From Vibrio pelagius (GTDB lineage Bacteria; Pseudomonadota; Gammaproteobacteria; Enterobacterales; Vibrionaceae): DNA of 64,000 nt. Numbering within the stretch: the first letter of the stretch is position 1; each line of letters opens with the position of its first letter. Of the stretch, positions 29,101 to 37,600 are shown piece by piece. The stretch is taken from assembly GCF_024347575.1 (NCBI RefSeq), contig NZ_AP025503.1, positions 1,736,001 through 1,800,000 of the forward strand, in the 5' to 3' direction. The position numbers and the translations under genes were made by a program. The notes under the pieces were generated by a model. That model had not been told where the DNA came from. It made no database searches and worked only from the letters and a program-made list of their open reading frames with translations.

Positions 29101-29147
29101 ACTTTGGGGGATGACTTTTCATCCCCGTTTTGGAAAAGGATATTTAC

Positions 29148-30236
29148 ATGAACACTAGGCAAAAGCAACAAACGGAGTTCGAAGCAAGTGGGGCCAACAT
29201 CGAAGTAGGAACTCCTGAAAACTGTCCTCTAGCTCCTTCAGTCTTAACAAGCATTACCGAAACTTCAGCTTATGTCACAAAATCAATAGATTCAGGCCTG
29301 ACCGCTGAAGTTTATCAACTCACCGTTAATGGTAAAAAATATACTTTAAAGAAAAAGAGAGCTTCGGCACTCGTTTCTAACTTGGATGGCAAATTCTCAT
29401 TTTTGAATGAAGTTCAACGTAGAGCTGATTTTTACAAATTAAAATCCACCCACAATGATGGTGAAGTCTTACCCAACATTGTAGATACGACTTACGCTAA
29501 CTATCGATTGGGTATAATACTATCCCCGTGGATCGAAGGTGAGCCGCTAGAAAATTTAAACAAAGATATTTTTAAGCAAATACTAGAAACCACATCGCTA
29601 TGTGAGCAATACGGGCTAATGGAATGGGACCTTTGCGAAGGTAACATTTTGATTAATAAAGACGGTAAAGTTTTTCTATTCGACTTTGGTTATATGTATC
29701 CTTTTAACCCTCTAGTCGATATAAATAGTAATGGTACGTCTGACCCCATTTTTCATAGCGTTGAACGATTCGAAACCCGATTTTTCTTTGGATGGCTCTT
29801 AGGTAGAGATAATCTAAGTGAAGATGAAAAAATAGCTTTGTTTGCCGACCTAAAATCTGTAGCGATAGATGTCTTTAACAAAAAAATCTCATGGTTGAAT
29901 GCAAATAATGCCTCACCTGAGGTTATTCAACACTTTCAAAATATTGTCAATAAATGGTCTCAAGCTTTGAAAAGCAGTAACGCATTAAAGAAGCTATATA
30001 GAGCTGAATCATTCAGGTCCCATGTTCTAGATATAGAAGACGACTTGCATGGAAAAAGTTGTACAAAAAAAACCTTAGCAAGAATTGATCATGTTTTGGA
30101 CTCAATAGCCAATCACTACGAGTTCTTGAATTCAAACAACTGTCTTTTTTACGAAAACACCGGTAAGTCTCAGCAGAACCTACTCGAAACATACCAAAAT
30201 AAGTATAAGCTTGCACAACAGCATTTGATTATCTAG
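29148..30236 (+). CDS. Protein-kinase-like fold protein
   Basis: A 362-residue cytosolic protein with eukaryotic-type kinase landmarks: a glycine-poor loop (SGLTAEVYQLTVNGKKYTLKKKR) with Lys residues fitting the ATP-binding position, a hinge region LGIILSPWIEGEPL, a catalytic-loop version EWDLCEGNIL (Asp161, Asn166), and DFGYMYPFNP at 179. The HRD histidine is replaced by Trp. It may phosphorylate a small molecule or lipid sugar, or be a pseudokinase. Start 29148 follows AAGGATATTTAC. It is coexpressed with the nitroreductase, an unusual pairing. Confidence 0.65.
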   Translation: MNTRQKQQTEFEASGANIEVGTPENCPLAPSVLTSITETSAYVTKSIDSGLTAEVYQLTVNGKKYTLKKKRASALVSNLDGKFSFLNEVQRRADFYKLKSTHNDGEVLPNIVDTTYANYRLGIILSPWIEGEPLENLNKDIFKQILETTSLCEQYGLMEWDLCEGNILINKDGKVFLFDFGYMYPFNPLVDINSNGTSDPIFHSVERFETRFFFGWLLGRDNLSEDEKIALFADLKSVAIDVFNKKISWLNANNASPEVIQHFQNIVNKWSQALKSSNALKKLYRAESFRSHVLDIEDDLHGKSCTKKTLARIDHVLDSIANHYEFLNSNNCLFYENTGKSQQNLLETYQNKYKLAQQHLII

Positions 30237-31370: not shown

Positions 31371-31774
31371 CCCTACTGATGACTCTGTAGAAAATTTGAT
31401 TATATCGATGTATCAAATGCTTATTAGACGGTTAAAAGCCACGGTTCCAACCTCCTGTAACGCATTCTTTCTCTTAGATCTTCACCTTTAAGAAAGGCTT
31501 AGTACTCGAATGAGATGTTAGATTGCTCTGTGAGTGAGAATTTCTGGATGTGCTGAATTCGAATAACTTTTAGCATGGCAAACGCACATTAACGAGGTGT
31601 GAATCGTTAAAAGCACTAACTAGAAATGAGGCAATTTCGAGCTTGAGAATGCCACAACTTCAGATTGTGACGTATTGGGAAACACCCGCTAACAATCACC
31701 TTTACATTGTGGAATTAAGAGTTAGAAGCTCTTATCATTTACACTAGGCAAGTAACCCCTATCACAACCTAGCT
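31371..31774. other. Spacer downstream of the Hxs locus
   Basis: Nothing coding is supported. I looked for an integron attC/VCR-like site and a terminator for the Hxs operon and found neither convincingly. Confidence 0.4.
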
Positions 31775-33010
31775 CTACAACACATCCAGAAATGCCAGCA
31801 ACTGACTAAGCTCACTTTCATCCACTCTAATCCAGCGTAGCATGTCACTGCGTCGGTCCAGCGATTCATTATTATCGAAAATCATTTGATCGGAGACTGT
31901 CGGATCCCGATAGTAGAAAATGGGACTGATATGATGCTTAACCACCCCTTTCAATGTAGGAAAAATACCATTATGTCCATATGGAGCCGTTTTAGATACC
32001 GCTACCAATGAAGGCGTTCTAAACGCATATCTATCACTGTTGTCCAGAGTCACCAGTGCTCGACCAAAATCTTGTCCAAACATGTGGGGGCCTTGATTTC
32101 CCTGAGGAACACCAATTGAATGAAACGACATATCACTCATTAAGTCCCCAGAATGACAAGAAGCACAACGCGCCTTACCATAAAAAAGTATGGCACCGCG
32201 TTTTTGCACTTCTGACAATGCAGACGTATCGCCATTTATGTATTGTTCCCAAGCTGAAGGCGTACACTCCTCACTGACCTTCTGCCTTATGAAACTTGCC
32301 AATGCATTACCAACCAAAGGTAACGTCAGGTCTGCCTGAGGTATGTTGGCAGATTCCATTGCGGCCAGCAGCATTCGAACATCAGGATCATTTTTTTCGA
32401 GTAGCCTTTCTTGAATGAAGGTATTTTGAGCAGGCACCTTGTCAGCATAGTATTGTGACTCAACGAGGTCGACATGGCGATTGGTGTTGAATAGTTTACT
32501 GGTGCCGAGAAACTCGTCACGAGCCAACAGTGGTAAAACTGCCGCAACAGCGAGCGCAGAATCAAAGCCCAACGAGCTCCCCTCGCCAACGGGTGAAAAA
32601 ATCTTTCCGTCAATAGCTTGAACCTTACCATCCCAAAAGAACGTATTGAATCGGCTATCACCCCGAGCAAAAAGAGTAAAAGCGTTACGCGGCACAACTG
32701 CGCCATCACTAGCTAACCTCTCCTCACCTTCACCTATCCCTCCAACACCAATCGCTAAAGGTAGTCCATCAGTGAGTGCCTTGTTATCAAGATGGCAATT
32801 AGCACAAGCAGTGTCCTTATCCCCACTCAACACAGGGCGTTCAAAAACCACTTTGCCCACATCTGCCAAATACGAAGGTTCTTTCACCAACGGCTTTGAA
32901 CAAACATTCCCTTCAAGCTCAAACGCTTGAATAGCCACCCTTAATGTCTCATCCAGAGACATGGCGCTAACCTGGAATGACGCAAACATAACAAGAAGCC
33001 AGGCTTTCAC
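31775..33010 (-). CDS. Dihaem MauG-like cytochrome c peroxidase of the Hxs locus
   Basis: A 411-residue periplasmic protein. It has a signal peptide (MKAWLLVMFASFQVSA) and two c-type haem sites, CANCH at 69-73 and CASCH at 282-286, spaced as in the dihaem peroxidase/MauG family. MauG uses high-valent haem iron to complete a protein-derived tryptophylquinone cofactor. A MauG-like protein is a recognised companion of His-Xaa-Ser loci in TIGRFAM-type annotation (from memory). The start is GTG at 33010 with GGGAGAGG upstream, 2 bp after the preceding gene. It probably acts on periplasmic HxsA or its product; this is inference. An ordinary H2O2-detoxifying peroxidase is the alternative. Confidence 0.85.
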   Translation of the reverse strand: MKAWLLVMFASFQVSAMSLDETLRVAIQAFELEGNVCSKPLVKEPSYLADVGKVVFERPVLSGDKDTACANCHLDNKALTDGLPLAIGVGGIGEGEERLASDGAVVPRNAFTLFARGDSRFNTFFWDGKVQAIDGKIFSPVGEGSSLGFDSALAVAAVLPLLARDEFLGTSKLFNTNRHVDLVESQYYADKVPAQNTFIQERLLEKNDPDVRMLLAAMESANIPQADLTLPLVGNALASFIRQKVSEECTPSAWEQYINGDTSALSEVQKRGAILFYGKARCASCHSGDLMSDMSFHSIGVPQGNQGPHMFGQDFGRALVTLDNSDRYAFRTPSLVAVSKTAPYGHNGIFPTLKGVVKHHISPIFYYRDPTVSDQMIFDNNESLDRRSDMLRWIRVDESELSQLLAFLDVL

Positions 33011-33012
33011 AT

Positions 33013-33369
33013 TTACCTCTCCCTAAACCTATGTTGCTCTATCAATGGTTCAATAGAGCGTTGGTGCAGCTCTATTGCCTCCAGTCCAAGGTAACCAAGT
33101 ACAGACTCTGGTACTCGCATTGCAAGCATGATCTTCCGAGTTTTGTCATATTCGTGGCACGCCAATAAATGTACTTTTGCTGTTTGGTTCAATGTGTTTG
33201 ATTCCAATTGCTCAATATACCAAGTCTCATCCATCGCCAGAGAACACTCAGCGGTTTGCTCCATAAACTGATTTTTATAATAGAAGTATGCAAACACGGG
33301 TGAAACCACATAGATTCCTATCCAGGCGATACAACACAGTGAAATAATGAAGTAAAAAAAACGCTTCAT
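33013..33369 (-). CDS. Small membrane-anchored protein of the Hxs locus
   Basis: A 118-residue protein with one N-terminal membrane helix (FFYFIISLCCIAWIGIYVVSPVFAYFYY) and a soluble part, probably periplasmic, containing two Cys (CSLAMDETWY and LLACHEYDKTRK). It resembles the short companion protein annotated in TIGRFAM-type sets as a His-Xaa-Ser system protein (TIGR03982, from memory). Its ATG overlaps the hxsA stop by ATGA, and it ends 2 bp before the dihaem gene. It might position HxsA and the MauG-like enzyme at the membrane; its function is unknown. Confidence 0.75.
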   Translation of the reverse strand: MKRFFYFIISLCCIAWIGIYVVSPVFAYFYYKNQFMEQTAECSLAMDETWYIEQLESNTLNQTAKVHLLACHEYDKTRKIMLAMRVPESVLGYLGLEAIELHQRSIEPLIEQHRFRER

Positions 33370-33899
33370 CGCGCAATAATCCCTAGTGAATTCAATGTCA
33401 CCGTATCAAGGGTTTGCGAAACAGGTATATTGTTGTCCACTCGATAGGCATTTAATGCTTTACGAGTTTGCTTGCCCATAATCCCATCGATGATTCCCTT
33501 GTAGTAACCACTTGTATAGAGTGCGAACTGAACTCGGATGATAAGATCCTTACGTTTTTCTAACTCCTCTACTGTAGATATTGGTGGTTTGGTTGCAGGC
33601 GCTGTATAACTCGGGGTAGAAGGTTGTGTAAGGGGTTGGGATTTTTGCTTTTTAACTGGGGCACTATAGGTCGACCCCGCGGACGACCGATGAGAACTAT
33701 GACTTCTGTGGCTACTGTGGCTCCGATGCGCTGCGATGTATAGAGGAATAGCCTCATTTAGAGGCGCTAACACCACCTTGTCGAGTAACAATTCATCTTT
33801 AACATCGTGCTCCTCCGACGCTGCAGTGCCTGCGTCGGCACCTGAGTTTAAAGCGAAGAAACCTGGTAGTAAGGCCGCTAGATTGAAATTCCTTTTCAT
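33366..33899 (-). CDS. hxsA: His-Xaa-Ser repeat protein HxsA (putative modified substrate)
   Basis: A 177-residue protein. The N-terminal ~22 residues are signal-like (MKRNFNLAALLPGFFALNSG). Five uninterrupted His-x-Ser tripeptides run at residues 58-72 (HRS, HSS, HRS, HSS, HRS), then a Pro/Thr/Ser-rich linker, then a peptidoglycan-binding domain at about 113-175 (VQFALYTSGYYKGIIDGIMG, TRKALNAYR). This is the defining HxsA architecture, and the repeats are the presumed site of modification by the two radical SAM enzymes. Start 33899 has AAGGAG and overlaps the hxsC stop by ATGA; longer frames run through hxsC. The product's chemistry and role are unknown to me. Confidence 0.92.
   Translation of the reverse strand: MKRNFNLAALLPGFFALNSGADAGTAASEEHDVKDELLLDKVVLAPLNEAIPLYIAAHRSHSSHRSHSSHRSSAGSTYSAPVKKQKSQPLTQPSTPSYTAPATKPPISTVEELEKRKDLIIRVQFALYTSGYYKGIIDGIMGKQTRKALNAYRVDNNIPVSQTLDTVTLNSLGIIAR
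33684..33728 (-). repeat. Five tandem His-x-Ser codon triplets in hxsA
   Basis: Codes H58-S72 of HxsA. The repeat is conserved in protein but not in codons: His uses CAT and CAC, Ser uses AGC, AGT, TCT and TCG, Arg uses CGG and AGA. This indicates selection on the amino acid pattern rather than a fresh DNA duplication. Confidence 0.9.
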
Positions 33900-35014
33900 A
33901 TTATTCTCCTTGGTAATGCATGATACTTTCCACGAGACGATGAGAAATAACCTCCACAACTGTCTTTTAACTGACAATCCGAACACTCACTAGGATAGTA
34001 GTTCTTCCAGTCTGATATAGATTTGACAGCGTAGGATCTGATTGACGAAGGTAAATGACAAAGTGGAAAATTAAACAGCGTCGGATTTAACCCGGCAATT
34101 TCAGCAGTCAACAGGCCCTTTATCAGGGCGTCTTCATAGTCTTCTGGAGCACACTCTAGCGCTGACCAGTTTCTTTTAGCCCAACCAGTCGCTTCCAAGT
34201 TCATTATCGACAACTGTACAACACCAGAAAAAACACGAGCAATGTATTCGGCGACTTGTGGTAACTCACTAGCGTTGTGTTGAGTCGGAATGAAGCGCAC
34301 TTCCATCTTAATGCCTGAGTTTCCAGCATTGATCATCCCAACGACCGTTTGTGAAAACGCACCATCTCTTCCAACTAAATGATCATGAGTTCGGCCTCTC
34401 ACCGAATAGAGAGGAATACCAAAGGTGATATCGAGGCGACTAGCCATCAAAGCCAGCTGTCCAGTAAATTCTAAATCTGAAAATGCCCGCCCATTGGTCA
34501 GGACATGTAAACGAGTGTTGGGAGCATGGTCTGAGACAAACTCCAGAAATTTGATAAAAGCATCACCGTACAATAGTGGCTCCCCACCACTAATACCGAC
34601 ATCACCATCAAACCCAAATGCGGCTAGAGCGAGCGCTCCGTATGACAACAACCAGTCATCCCTTTCCTCTCGTGGAGGTTGCGAACAAAATAAGCAAAGG
34701 TTATTGCAGCGCTCGGTTACAAGCAGTGTGTTGTGATTGGCTCTTCGCGACAAAATAACCCGCAACTGTCCAAACTGGTTTATGTTAACCACATCGCCAT
34801 CATCTACAGAATTATGTAATGTCGCATGAGTGATAACACCAACAAAATCGTCACTAGCAGAATTCGGGGGCGCTTGTTGCTCCTTTGCAAGGAAGACCTG
34901 TTCTAAGTAACGACTGTCGCTCGTTCCTTTATCTTTGCGGATTTGATAAAACCCTGGGGTCGAAAATCCGTCTTCTTCCAACGAGAATGTATCGGGTCGA
35001 ATGACGTTACTCAT
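33896..35014 (-). CDS. hxsC: His-Xaa-Ser system radical SAM maturase HxsC
   Basis: A 372-residue radical SAM protein. The 4Fe-4S motif CNNLCLFC is at residues 103-110 (Cys103, 107, 110), followed by the SAM-binding GGEP region (GDVGISGGEPLLYG). Cys residues close to the C-terminus (CSDCQLKDSCGGYFSS) suit an auxiliary cluster. I start at 35014 (MSNVIRPDTF) because AAGGAG precedes it within the hxsB tail; the hxsB and hxsC frames overlap by 8 bp. Together with HxsB it should modify HxsA. The reaction is undetermined. Both maturases being coupled suggests a fixed stoichiometry. Confidence 0.9.
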   Translation of the reverse strand: MSNVIRPDTFSLEEDGFSTPGFYQIRKDKGTSDSRYLEQVFLAKEQQAPPNSASDDFVGVITHATLHNSVDDGDVVNINQFGQLRVILSRRANHNTLLVTERCNNLCLFCSQPPREERDDWLLSYGALALAAFGFDGDVGISGGEPLLYGDAFIKFLEFVSDHAPNTRLHVLTNGRAFSDLEFTGQLALMASRLDITFGIPLYSVRGRTHDHLVGRDGAFSQTVVGMINAGNSGIKMEVRFIPTQHNASELPQVAEYIARVFSGVVQLSIMNLEATGWAKRNWSALECAPEDYEDALIKGLLTAEIAGLNPTLFNFPLCHLPSSIRSYAVKSISDWKNYYPSECSDCQLKDSCGGYFSSSRGKYHALPRRII

Positions 35015-36404
35015 GTAACCACTCCTTAAGCATCTCACCAATGCCGTCTTCTGCGTATAGATGCTTAAGAATTAATGTGAACATTGCTTTGTGATACTGA
35101 CAAAATCGAGAAAGGCTCTTATCGCCAAGTGGCTCTCCAAAAACACTAATGTTTTGACAAGGGTCTGAGCCACAAAACGGTTGGTATGCACAGGAGGCAC
35201 ATCCCGGATGAACAGAAATAAAAGACTGAGACAATATTGATTTGTACAGACTGTTTGACTCGATGACTGGCTCTTGAATGGTTCCAAGTGAAAAATCGAT
35301 ATCGGGGTTGGTCTTTTGAAGCATCCGAGCCTCATCGCTTCCATATATACGACCATCATAATTGAACATGATACAGTTTAGGATTAGGCCGCTCGGGGAT
35401 TTTAGGTCTGCGTATCCACTGTAATCCGCATTAAATATTCTTCTAAGGTGAATCAATGCAGAATGTTCGATGATTCTTTCCCCCGCGAGTCGCTTTCGGT
35501 TTAAGACCTTCAAGAGTTGTTCATAAAAAGCCATGAACGCCTTAATATCGTACGTCTTTGCATTCCCTTTATTGGCAAAACCGTAAGGGCTTATCGGGCG
35601 AACAAACATGTCGGAAAATCCAAGATCACTATGCGCATCGACGATATCTTCAGGCTTTTGCAACAACGCCTCGGTTACGGTGGTAACGGTAGCAACTCTA
35701 TCCGGACCTAACCTACGTCTAATTTTTTCAACGCCTTGTTTCACCAGTTCAAAGGAATTTCCACCCTTTAATACTCGATTGGAGTTATGTGTGAACGCCC
35801 CTCCATCGAGTGAAGTTGAGAAATTAATAGGTTTGTCTTCACTCCATGTCAAAACGTCATCGCTCAGTAGAGAAAGGCTCGTTGCAATTACTATCTCAAA
35901 CTGGTCGACACCCAGGTTAGAAACCGCCTCCTGATAGATCTTTTGAACGAGATCAAACCTTAAAAGAGGCTCGCCCCCCTGAATTTCCAGCTTGTATGGA
36001 GCATTTCCGAGGGAACGGATTCTTTGGAGCAAAAGGGGAATCAAGTCTGGATCTAGATCGTAGTTACTTGCTTTGACAGAGGCTCGGCTCACCTGGCAAT
36101 AATGGCATGTGTGATCACATCTTAGCGTTGGCACAATCATAAATATGGGATTGAAGTTGAGCGCCGACATTAAGCGTTTTGACATACCCGAAGCGAGAGA
36201 GCCAACCGAAGCAGATTTGTATTCGTCATCACAAATAAAGAGCTTTCTTTCAAGCAACTCATCGATAACAGCATCATCGGTGGAGTTTTTATCTATCAGC
36301 GAATTGAGTTCCATTCTGTTCAAGTACGCATGAAACCCGGCCAGATTCGTTAATAACGCAATATCAGAGTCAAGAAACTCGAAGTTAAAAGGCAATACGT
36401 TCAT
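35007..36404 (-). CDS. hxsB: His-Xaa-Ser system radical SAM maturase HxsB
   Basis: A 465-residue radical SAM/SPASM-like protein. The cluster-binding motif CDHTCHYC is at residues 96-103, GGEPLLRFD follows as the SAM site, and the C-terminal Cys-rich region (CIMFNYDG, CASCAYQPFCGSDPC, FCQYH) matches SPASM-type auxiliary clusters, common in peptide-modifying enzymes such as quinohaemoprotein and sactipeptide maturases. The N-terminal ~80 residues may carry a peptide-recognition fold. The start overlaps the hxsD stop by ATGA. HxsB is the larger of the two maturases and probably works on HxsA before or together with HxsC. That order is inference. Confidence 0.92.
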   Translation of the reverse strand: MNVLPFNFEFLDSDIALLTNLAGFHAYLNRMELNSLIDKNSTDDAVIDELLERKLFICDDEYKSASVGSLASGMSKRLMSALNFNPIFMIVPTLRCDHTCHYCQVSRASVKASNYDLDPDLIPLLLQRIRSLGNAPYKLEIQGGEPLLRFDLVQKIYQEAVSNLGVDQFEIVIATSLSLLSDDVLTWSEDKPINFSTSLDGGAFTHNSNRVLKGGNSFELVKQGVEKIRRRLGPDRVATVTTVTEALLQKPEDIVDAHSDLGFSDMFVRPISPYGFANKGNAKTYDIKAFMAFYEQLLKVLNRKRLAGERIIEHSALIHLRRIFNADYSGYADLKSPSGLILNCIMFNYDGRIYGSDEARMLQKTNPDIDFSLGTIQEPVIESNSLYKSILSQSFISVHPGCASCAYQPFCGSDPCQNISVFGEPLGDKSLSRFCQYHKAMFTLILKHLYAEDGIGEMLKEWLHE

Positions 36405-36676
36405 TTCAATAGCTTCTTCTCAACGGAGCTAAGAACAGCTGCGGATATCCCTTCCAAATAACTACTGGTTTTCTCTGATAGTTTTTCTCGAAGAAGATAG
36501 TCATTCAACAGACGTTCGAATTCCAGAATGACACCCTCATCTTGGGAAAAAAAATGAACGGTCCACAGTATGTCTTCATCTGTCAGCTTCCAGGTAGTTA
36601 TAGGAGACATCCAATACAAAGCCTGCCGGACAACCAACTCTGAGAAACTACTTTTTTCTAATTGATGAACTAACAT
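36401..36676 (-). CDS. hxsD: His-Xaa-Ser system protein HxsD
   Basis: A 91-residue small protein at the head of the operon, with the size and position of HxsD. It reads LVVRQALYWMSPITTWKLTDEDILWTVHFF, without a signal peptide, Cys pairs or known catalytic residues, consistent with a small partner such as a peptide-binding chaperone for the radical SAM enzymes; this is inference. I start at 36676 (MLVHQLEKSS) rather than 24 codons upstream because the longer N-terminus is hydrophobic and atypical. It ends in an ATGA overlap with hxsB. Confidence 0.78.
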   Translation of the reverse strand: MLVHQLEKSSFSELVVRQALYWMSPITTWKLTDEDILWTVHFFSQDEGVILEFERLLNDYLLREKLSEKTSSYLEGISAAVLSSVEKKLLK

Positions 36677-37373
36677 GCACACACCTATTAATTGGATGAG
36701 TTCCCACAAAAGACACGTTAAGTGTGTCGCTAAAGGAGAGCATAACAACTATGTAAAGTGTAAATATACCACCATACGCATACTGGTGATTATGATAAGA
36801 GTCGCATTTGAGAAGGTTGTTGGCTATTTAGTTTTGAGGCATAAGTGCATTGGTTTAAGATAATAATTGCAGTGCTTTATGTGAGAAAAGCAACAACTCT
36901 CTACTCATTACCTTACTTCGCCACGGTTTAGATATCTGATTTAAAGTCATCCCCTAGCCTTAAGTTCTAAAGATAGCTCCCAAGATGAAGGTCAAAAACA
37001 CTGTCAACAAAACGCTTGTCGACATTAAGAGCCGCCAATGTTCTGAGCTTATCACCCCATCGAATGAAAACGTATGTCTTTCTGATCCCTTCCTTGACAT
37101 TCCTCATATCCCCTATCCTGTACTTACAACATGTTAATCATTAAAAAATAGGTCAATCTGTCGACGAGACTTTACTGATGGTCTCGGCTCAAAATCATTT
37201 TGGGCACAAATGGGCACAACCGTGCCCAGTCGCGCCCTACAGTATAGGATTCACCAACTAGCCAATGAATAAAGCATACCTATTTATTCATTTTTGTATA
37301 TTGACACAAAGGGCTTAGCAGAGAAGGTCCTGCTTGTTGGCAGTAGATAGAAATCATTAAACTCAAGAAACAA
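36677..37373. other. Spacer upstream of the Hxs operon, island edge next to tRNA-Val
   Basis: It should contain the hxsD promoter. A 46-codon minus-strand frame at 36967-37107 has AGGATAGGGGAT before its ATG but resembles nothing I know. A plus-strand frame ending WAQMGTTVPSRALQYRI...LANE-stop at about 37197-37268 looks like the tail of a lost gene. GGGCACAACCGTGCCC at 37212-37227 is a short palindrome. No integrase is present. Confidence 0.4.
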
Positions 37374-37410: not shown

Positions 37411-37487
37411 TGGTGGATCCGGGCGAACTCGAATCGCCGACCCCCGCCATGTCAAGGCGGTACTCTAACCAACTGAGCTACGGATCC
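37411..37487 (-). tRNA. tRNA-Val (anticodon GAC)
   Basis: A 77-nt gene including an encoded CCA. The acceptor stem is GGATCCG, the D-arm is GTAGCTCAGTTGGTTAGAG, the anticodon stem CCGCC/GGCGG has loop TTGACAT (anticodon GAC), and the T-arm contains TTCGAGT. The discriminator is A. It is separated by 36 bp from an almost identical tRNA and they are probably cotranscribed. Confidence 0.95.
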
Positions 37488-37523
37488 AAAATGTTGTTCG
37501 TTGCATTATTATGCAGTAAGGGA

Positions 37524-37600
37524 TGGTGGGTCCGGGCGAACTCGAATCGCCGACCCCTACCATGTCAAGGTAGTACTCTAACCAACTGAGCTACGGACCC
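37524..37600 (-). tRNA. tRNA-Val (anticodon GAC)
   Basis: A 77-nt gene including CCA. It is identical to its neighbour apart from compensatory changes in the acceptor stem (GGGTCCG) and anticodon stem (CTACC/GGTAG). The anticodon loop TTGACAT gives GAC. It is the promoter-proximal copy of the pair. Confidence 0.95.

Follow-up and report, generated by a model that had tools for sequence, protein, structure and literature searches.

A complete His-Xaa-Ser (Hxs) peptide-modification locus in Vibrio pelagius and the possible role of its dihaem enzyme

A block of six tightly packed genes on the minus strand of Vibrio pelagius contig NZ_AP025503.1, at positions 31775 to 36676 of the window (the whole stretch of 64,000 nucleotides that was analysed), constitutes a complete, canonical His-Xaa-Ser (Hxs) system, of a kind already catalogued. 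The genes follow one another in the order hxsD-hxsB-hxsC-hxsA-TIGR03982-dihaem enzyme. Comparison with related systems indicates that the run of His-Xaa-Ser (HxS) units in the predicted substrate, HxsA, looks much the same whether or not the dihaem enzyme gene is present, so that the core modification probably needs only the two radical S-adenosylmethionine (SAM) enzymes, HxsB and HxsC, and HxsD. The features of the locus are as follows.

36401 to 36676, minus strand: hxsD, 91 amino acids (TIGR03976)
35007 to 36404, minus strand: hxsB, 465 amino acids, radical SAM/SPASM-type maturase
33896 to 35014, minus strand: hxsC, 372 amino acids, second radical SAM maturase (TIGR03977)
33366 to 33899, minus strand: hxsA, 177 amino acids, predicted substrate protein (TIGR03979)
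33684 to 33728, minus strand: HxS core of hxsA, residues 58 to 72, HRSHSSHRSHSSHRS, the presumed modification site (coordinates calculated from the hxsA start at 33899)
33013 to 33369, minus strand: TIGR03982 protein, 118 amino acids, 187.8 bits against a cut-off of 40
31775 to 33010, minus strand: dihaem (CCP_MauG) enzyme of family TIGR03981, 411 amino acids, 644.8 bits against a cut-off of 340; PF03150

An earlier note, made from the sequence of the window alone, had described this block, and the list of open reading frames bears out its frames, gene order and junctions: successive genes are joined by a 4-bp ATGA overlap, an 8-bp overlap, two 4-bp overlaps and a 2-bp gap. The CX3CX2C motifs that it placed at residues 96 to 103 of HxsB and 103 to 110 of HxsC are also present, and they are invariant in 18/18 HxsB and 19/19 HxsC sequences. 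Contrary to the note, the two radical SAM genes are not on either side of hxsA but next to each other upstream of it (D-B-C-A).

The Hxs family set was reportedly defined in silico by Haft and Basu (2011), as a radical SAM system predicted to modify peptides. Its models have been in use for genome annotation for more than a decade. All six NCBIfam Hxs models (TIGR03976 to TIGR03979, TIGR03981 and TIGR03982) matched the window above cut-off, with E values from 3.2e-16 to 5.4e-194; HxsD scored 59.5 bits against a curated cut-off of 50 (TIGR03976), HxsB 576.6 against 370, HxsC 392.1 against 267.9 (TIGR03977) and HxsA 226.2 against 121.65 (TIGR03979). The proposed assignment to the Hxs families was thus confirmed, and the two radical SAM genes fall in these families rather than in unrelated ones. 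Six further Vibrio genomes have the six-gene order as well, G031 with the genes divided over two contigs. As every gene passes its curated cut-off and the order recurs in six more Vibrio, the locus goes beyond a chance arrangement. With all six models and the HxS repeat shared, the gene content of the window differs in nothing from that of an Hxs system. One passage of PMC9062424 credits HxsB and HxsC to Haft and Basu. Our literature search found no reported product of an Hxs system, in agreement with the earlier note, which knew of no settled product or function.

The HxsA repeat consists of five HxS units at residues 58 to 72. Upstream of it the N terminus appears hydrophobic by eye, and a Pro/Ser-rich linker connects the run to a C-terminal peptidoglycan-binding domain (PF01471, residues 119 to 172; 26.8 bits against 23). 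The hydrophobic N terminus and the peptidoglycan-binding domain make export of HxsA plausible, as had been proposed. Residues 58 to 74 showed a mean major-residue frequency of 0.89 (n = 116), the highest of the protein, compared with 0.39 for residues 1 to 20, 0.33 for 21 to 50, 0.39 for 75 to 110 and 0.54 for 115 to 177. The set comprised the window protein and 115 of the 120 sequences listed among 249 found, the relatives having been selected for three consecutive HxS units and a start codon. Of the five sequences dropped, three were fragments, one was a piece lacking its start residue, and the fifth was a full-length protein with an LRS unit in its run. Because of this selection the invariance of the HxS run is somewhat overstated, which applies to His58, His67 and His70, present in 116/116 sequences. 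The run is four to seven units long, its X is mostly Arg or Ser, and Cys occurs in only 4/115 of the HxsA proteins.

By eye, no HxsA residue tracked the dihaem gene between eight systems that have it and nine that do not. These 17 systems leave out the split copy of G031, genomes G948 and G125 (the latter with no HxsA found) and the eight viral contigs. Several frames in the comparison, including those of L014 to L016, L048, L080, L089, L090, L100 and L104, begin upstream of the likely start codon, and the HxsA frame of L088 was chosen by eye. The 15-mer of the window, HRSHSSHRSHSSHRS, occurs in 5/8 of the dihaem-bearing and in 4/9 of the dihaem-less systems, the latter including a Klebsiella plasmid (L048) and a Leptospira phage (L047, KF114877.1). 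The phage locus is arranged hxsA-hxsD-hxsB-hxsC and encodes a 99-residue HxsA in which little follows the HxS run. The hxsA gene of G031 is interrupted near the run by the ends of two contigs (L082:10258-10626 and L083:58-294), through either a real break or an assembly gap.

The distribution of the genes also points to two forms of the system. HxsB scored above cut-off in 8/227 Vibrio species genomes, that of the window included. Seven of these eight have the six-gene form, counting the split locus of G031; the eighth, G948 (L164:8266-11810), has a more distant HxsB and only hxsDBCA in the 19.5 kb examined. TIGR03981 was above cut-off in 6/196 Vibrio genomes (G977, the seventh, came from a later genome draw) and in 1/398 genomes of the phylum, that of the window itself, and HxsC in 5/369 genomes of the class. 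HxsB matches were found in 424/72,556 plasmid records, of which 322 are from Klebsiella and 335 are predicted conjugative, and in 2/50,697 phage records. A Klebsiella-type hxs locus is present in 153/5426 Escherichia coli genomes, always on the chromosome; in 139 of them the match covers 80% or more of the locus. Klebsiella plasmid L048, the one examined in detail, has hxsDBCA only.

We compared 28 carriers, namely eight Vibrio, seven plasmids, one phage, four other genomes of the class and eight viral contigs encoding an HxsB relative. Nineteen of them, among which all the viral contigs, have neither a dihaem nor a TIGR03982 gene in the stretch compared. Neither gene was found, by annotation or match, beside hxs in the Klebsiella, Aeromonas, Nostoc, Rhizobium and Roseomonas plasmids and the Leptospira phage examined. 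In seven Vibrio and in two Rhodobacterales plasmids both genes are present and come immediately after hxsA. The Tritonibacter plasmid has hxsB-hxsC-hxsA ahead of them; in the Thioclava plasmid hxsC-hxsA precedes them, and a short frame resembling hxsB is present. No hxsD was identified in these two plasmids. Sub-cut-off TIGR03981 matches were considered as further Hxs systems and discarded, as no HxsB or HxsC match was present in the ten loci examined (L085, L086 and L091 to L098, long stretches except for L096, of only 12.8 kb).

Both maturases have the Cys complement of three radical SAM plus four auxiliary residues, at positions 96/100/103 and 402/405/411/435 in HxsB and at 103/107/110 and 319/344/347/353 in HxsC; each enzyme keeps this complement among the sequences compared, HxsC without exception (19/19). 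In the structural model of HxsB the N-terminal segment forms a beta3-alpha3 arrangement, with residues 46 to 68 at a predicted local distance difference test score (pLDDT) below 50; the structure of CteB aligned with HxsB from residue 5, and the segment had no Pfam match. It is perhaps a peptide-recognition domain, similar to the recognition elements of ribosomally synthesized and post-translationally modified peptide (RiPP) enzymes. HxsD was considered as a stand-alone, PqqD-like recognition protein and tentatively set aside, as its AlphaFold2 model (pLDDT 93.7) is beta-alpha-beta-beta-long-alpha and ferredoxin-like and does not resemble a winged helix. No peptide-recognition fold was among the matches listed for HxsD, an absence that excludes nothing.

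HxsA is very probably modified by HxsB and HxsC. As for the chemistry, triceptide systems offer a precedent: according to sections of PMC11002830, their radical SAM enzymes link residues i and i+2, with Phe-Ser links made by MscB, His-Ala by HaaB and His-Arg by YhhB. The H-x-S repeat conforms to the criterion for such substrates, an aromatic residue at i and a partner at i+2, and Hxs shares this pattern and SPASM-type radical SAM enzymes with the systems of XncB, OscB, MscB, HaaB and YhhB. Unlike them, it has two radical SAM enzymes plus HxsD, a large wall-binding substrate and scores far below the cut-offs of the corresponding models. Because the i/i+2 spacing fits, the His and Ser positions show high conservation and HxsA is nearly free of Cys, we tentatively regard three-residue cyclophanes, in which the ring of His would be bonded to the beta carbon of Ser, as the single most likely chemistry; their rank ahead of Ser oxidation or epimerisation is just as tentative. 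Thioether crosslinks are unlikely in view of this scarcity of Cys.

The dihaem protein has CXXCH motifs at residues 69 and 282. It shares with MauG, BthA and MbnH the CCP_MauG domain, the two CXXCH motifs and the columns of MauG Trp93, Pro107 and Glu113, which are kept in 8/8 aligned Hxs dihaem proteins. It differs from them in having Ala at the column of Gln103 (8/8) and 18 to 20 additional residues that separate the WDG motif from the Pro-Glu pair, whose Pro-to-Glu spacing of six is kept. It differs also at the column of the distal ligand of MauG, Tyr294, where BthA likewise has its Tyr ligand and which is His in 8/8 Hxs proteins, compared with Tyr in 18/19 and Met in 1/19 of the rows taken from MauG and MbnH model matches. 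Those 19 rows comprise ten matches to the MauG model, none of them above cut-off (0/200 genomes), and nine to the MbnH model, three of them above; the rows L136 and L146 are one protein. The Hxs dihaem protein of L016, left out of this alignment, has the same VVKHH motif. His360 is therefore predicted from the alignment to be the distal ligand of the C-terminal haem in the enzyme of the window. A His at this column is not unique to Hxs, since 5/6 non-Hxs CCP_MauG relatives share it, the sixth having Ser. These six relatives (L085, L086, L091, L092, L094 and L097) have no hxs neighbours in the stretch compared.

As described in part of PMC6405878, the Y463H variant of BthA loses the near-infrared bis-Fe(IV) feature and can still reduce peroxide when an external donor is supplied, and MauG Y294H reportedly loses the feature likewise. 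The His at the ligand column, together with this loss in Tyr-to-His variants, makes a peroxidase-type role likelier than MauG-type maturation. The Hxs protein scored far below the cut-offs of the MauG model TIGR03791 (107.5 against 443.85 bits) and of the MbnH model TIGR04039 (97.5 against 362.85). The gamma subunit of hydrazine synthase is a relative as well, a dihaem protein related to MauG/bCcP in which, according to a passage of PMC12607021, one haem has bis-His ligation, but the Hxs protein is far below the cut-off of its NCBIfam model (19.9 against 625 bits). On balance, it is an even call that the dihaem enzyme would be of a peroxidase type with bis-His ligation. The accompanying TIGR03982 protein has a hydrophobic N terminus, by eye a membrane anchor, with Cys42 and Cys71 present in 29/29 sequences and Trp50 in 27/29.

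Taken together, these observations suggest an Hxs cyclophane system with an optional periplasmic peroxidase-type module, an overall reading that we hold with slightly less than even confidence. In the cytoplasm, HxsB and HxsC, aided by HxsD, would modify every HxS unit of HxsA by a carbon-carbon bond that links the beta carbon of the Ser to the ring of the His two residues before it, generating a run of three-residue cyclophanes. Modified HxsA would then be exported and anchored on the cell wall by its C-terminal domain. The optional periplasmic module would consist of the TIGR03982 membrane protein and the dihaem enzyme, and for the latter the part of a peroxidase-type partner is likelier than that of making the core modification.

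Several observations weigh against parts of this scheme. HxsB gave low scores with the models of cyclophane-forming enzymes (YhhB 45.6 against 445, GrrM/OscB 38.6 against 310, AmcB 32.3 against 425), its best non-self model is that of a ranthipeptide (thioether) maturase, PapB (69.1 against 340), and its best structural matches are CteB and anSME, a Ser/Cys oxidase. The exact 15-mer of the window is carried by 0/120 of the HxsA sequences listed among the 249 found, and with X mostly Arg or Ser the same order of repeats could arise by chance. We therefore dropped the 15-mer as proof of a common product and used only the likeness of the HxS run. The ligand column comes from a sequence alignment, no PDB alignment examined having covered MauG Tyr294. 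Lastly, the conserved Trp50 of the TIGR03982 protein could be an oxidation target, and the dihaem gene, in nine of the nine systems having it, lies directly 3' of hxsA and the TIGR03982 gene, which fits an action on HxsA.

Such an action had been put forward in the earlier note, according to which HxsA would be made, exported and then finished by the dihaem enzyme. In this scenario HxsA, pre-modified by HxsB and HxsC, would be oxidised after export, as tryptophan tryptophylquinone is by MauG or Trp by MbnH. It is favoured by the constant position of the TIGR03982 and dihaem genes directly behind hxsA, in seven Vibrio as in two Rhodobacterales plasmids, by the presence of hxsB and hxsC in six of the six Vibrio with an above-cut-off TIGR03981 (on the other contig in G031), by the retention of the Trp93, Pro107 and Glu113 columns and by the conserved Trp of the TIGR03982 protein. 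It is opposed by the likeness of the HxS run without the dihaem gene, by the His and Ala at the Tyr294 and Gln103 columns and by scores far under the MauG and MbnH cut-offs. Furthermore, HxsA of the window has no Trp and thus no MauG-type Trp pair, and Trp occurs in or after the HxS run in 1/8 of the HxsA proteins from dihaem-bearing systems and in 7/115 overall. We thus consider this explanation unlikely; the export step of the earlier proposal stands as plausible, and the finishing step, its weak link, is not supported by these comparisons.

Another possibility is that HxsB and HxsC oxidise the Ser of the HxS units to a formylglycine-like residue, or epimerise residues, with no cross-link. 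The structural match to anSME is of this kind, but the sulfatase-maturase model scored 44.8 against 349.45, and the three His residues found throughout the HxS-selected set would be unneeded for Ser oxidation alone; we give this possibility a low probability. A comparably low one goes to the proposal that the HxS run is mainly a wall-anchored tag binding copper or a similar metal, with modifications that tune the site and the dihaem enzyme as a redox partner. Dense, periodic His residues in a presumably exported protein are consistent with it, and the His-crosslinked RiPP noursin binds copper through its crosslink, as stated in part of PMC10206099. Even less probable is a role for Hxs, as mobile cargo, in attack on or defence against other bacteria or phages. 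The occurrence of Hxs on plasmids, in phage records and viral contigs, on a mobile 5.5-kb segment and in two CRISPR-associated transposons would suit such a function, but PADLOC gave only weak viperin-type radical SAM matches (best E value 7.2e-7), and the six gene families include no toxin, immunity protein or protease.

The genomic setting of the locus is defined by two further features.

31693 to 37204, no strand: transferable hxs segment, with edges where strong homology to relatives ends
37411 to 37600, minus strand: two tRNA-Val(GAC) genes found by ARAGORN, at the border of conserved and variable chromosome

To judge from alignment with relatives, the hxs locus is a mobile segment of about 5.5 kb found at Vibrio sites with unrelated flanks. 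The segment is 95.1% identical to that of Vibrio tasmaniensis L014, 95.8% to that of Vibrio L080 and, from position 37122, 94.9% to that of Vibrio splendidus L016, and these loci, of 8.9 to 19 kb, had no other match to the window at an E value of 1e-8. The upstream edge falls on a short sequence common to all four, which in the window is shorter by one base. The segment adjoins the two tRNA-Val genes, which separate conserved from variable chromosome: the region to their right was matched, in some cases partly, in 61/61 Vibrio, and the region to their left had no long match in the other 60. Synteny ends at the tRNA-Val pair in three relatives too. Integration at a tRNA-Val gene was rejected, as the tRNA-Val 3' end has no further copy in the window beyond the two genes and no attachment repeat was found there. 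A dispersed palindromic intergenic repeat is present at 31627 to 31680 of the window and at L014:1580-1641, L016:1470-1530 and L080:8996-9036; it lies at or near an end of the hxs segment in the window, L014 and L080. A kinase-like protein is encoded at 29130 to 30236 of the window; its matches to Pkinase/ABC1 and to the defence model PD-T4-6 are weak, and the surrounding stretch has no long match in the 60 other Vibrio.

In two Vibrio species, hxs looks to be inside type I-F3 CRISPR-associated Tn7-like transposons. The six-gene block lies between tnsC and a tniQ-cas/CRISPR part in Vibrio tetraodonis (L015:3613-17395, with which L079 and L148 are grouped) and in Vibrio G802 (L084:2060-18484). 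On one side of hxs are genes for a TnsA-like protein, a Mu-type transposase and a TniB-like ATPase, and on the other those for TniQ and a Csy2-containing Cas8/5; Csy3 and Csy4 were recognized by model in L084 only, and CRISPR-like repeats spaced by 60 bases are present in L084 and L079. The gene set of one I-F3a element is given in a section of PMC12150760. The terms His-Xaa-Ser and radical SAM are absent from the main text of the transposon papers PMC8649781, PMC12452197 and PMC12150760. In contrast to the L015 and L084 loci, the copy in the window has no such transposon genes among the neighbours scanned. In Aeromonas salmonicida plasmid 4 (L102:11331-15347), a TnsA-like gene and a TniB-like ATPase gene are found just downstream of hxsDBCA.

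Matches are numerous among the Klebsiella plasmid records and E. coli genomes counted above, yet our search found no report on the product. What is new here is the likeness of the HxS run whether or not the dihaem gene is there, the i/i+2 spacing, the His at the ligand column and the mobility of the segment. It is conceivable, though improbable, that wall-anchored tandem His-Ser cyclophanes would work with a small membrane protein and a dihaem peroxidase of the bis-His type as a periplasmic machine for redox or metal handling in Vibrio and Rhodobacterales, spread by transposons, plasmids and phages. The Vibrio copy is complete, and its comparison with relatives replaces a vague label by testable claims; the interest of the locus thus lies in chemistry that can be put to the test, namely a mass shift of the HxS run, the haem ligand and the effect of the dihaem enzyme on HxsA.

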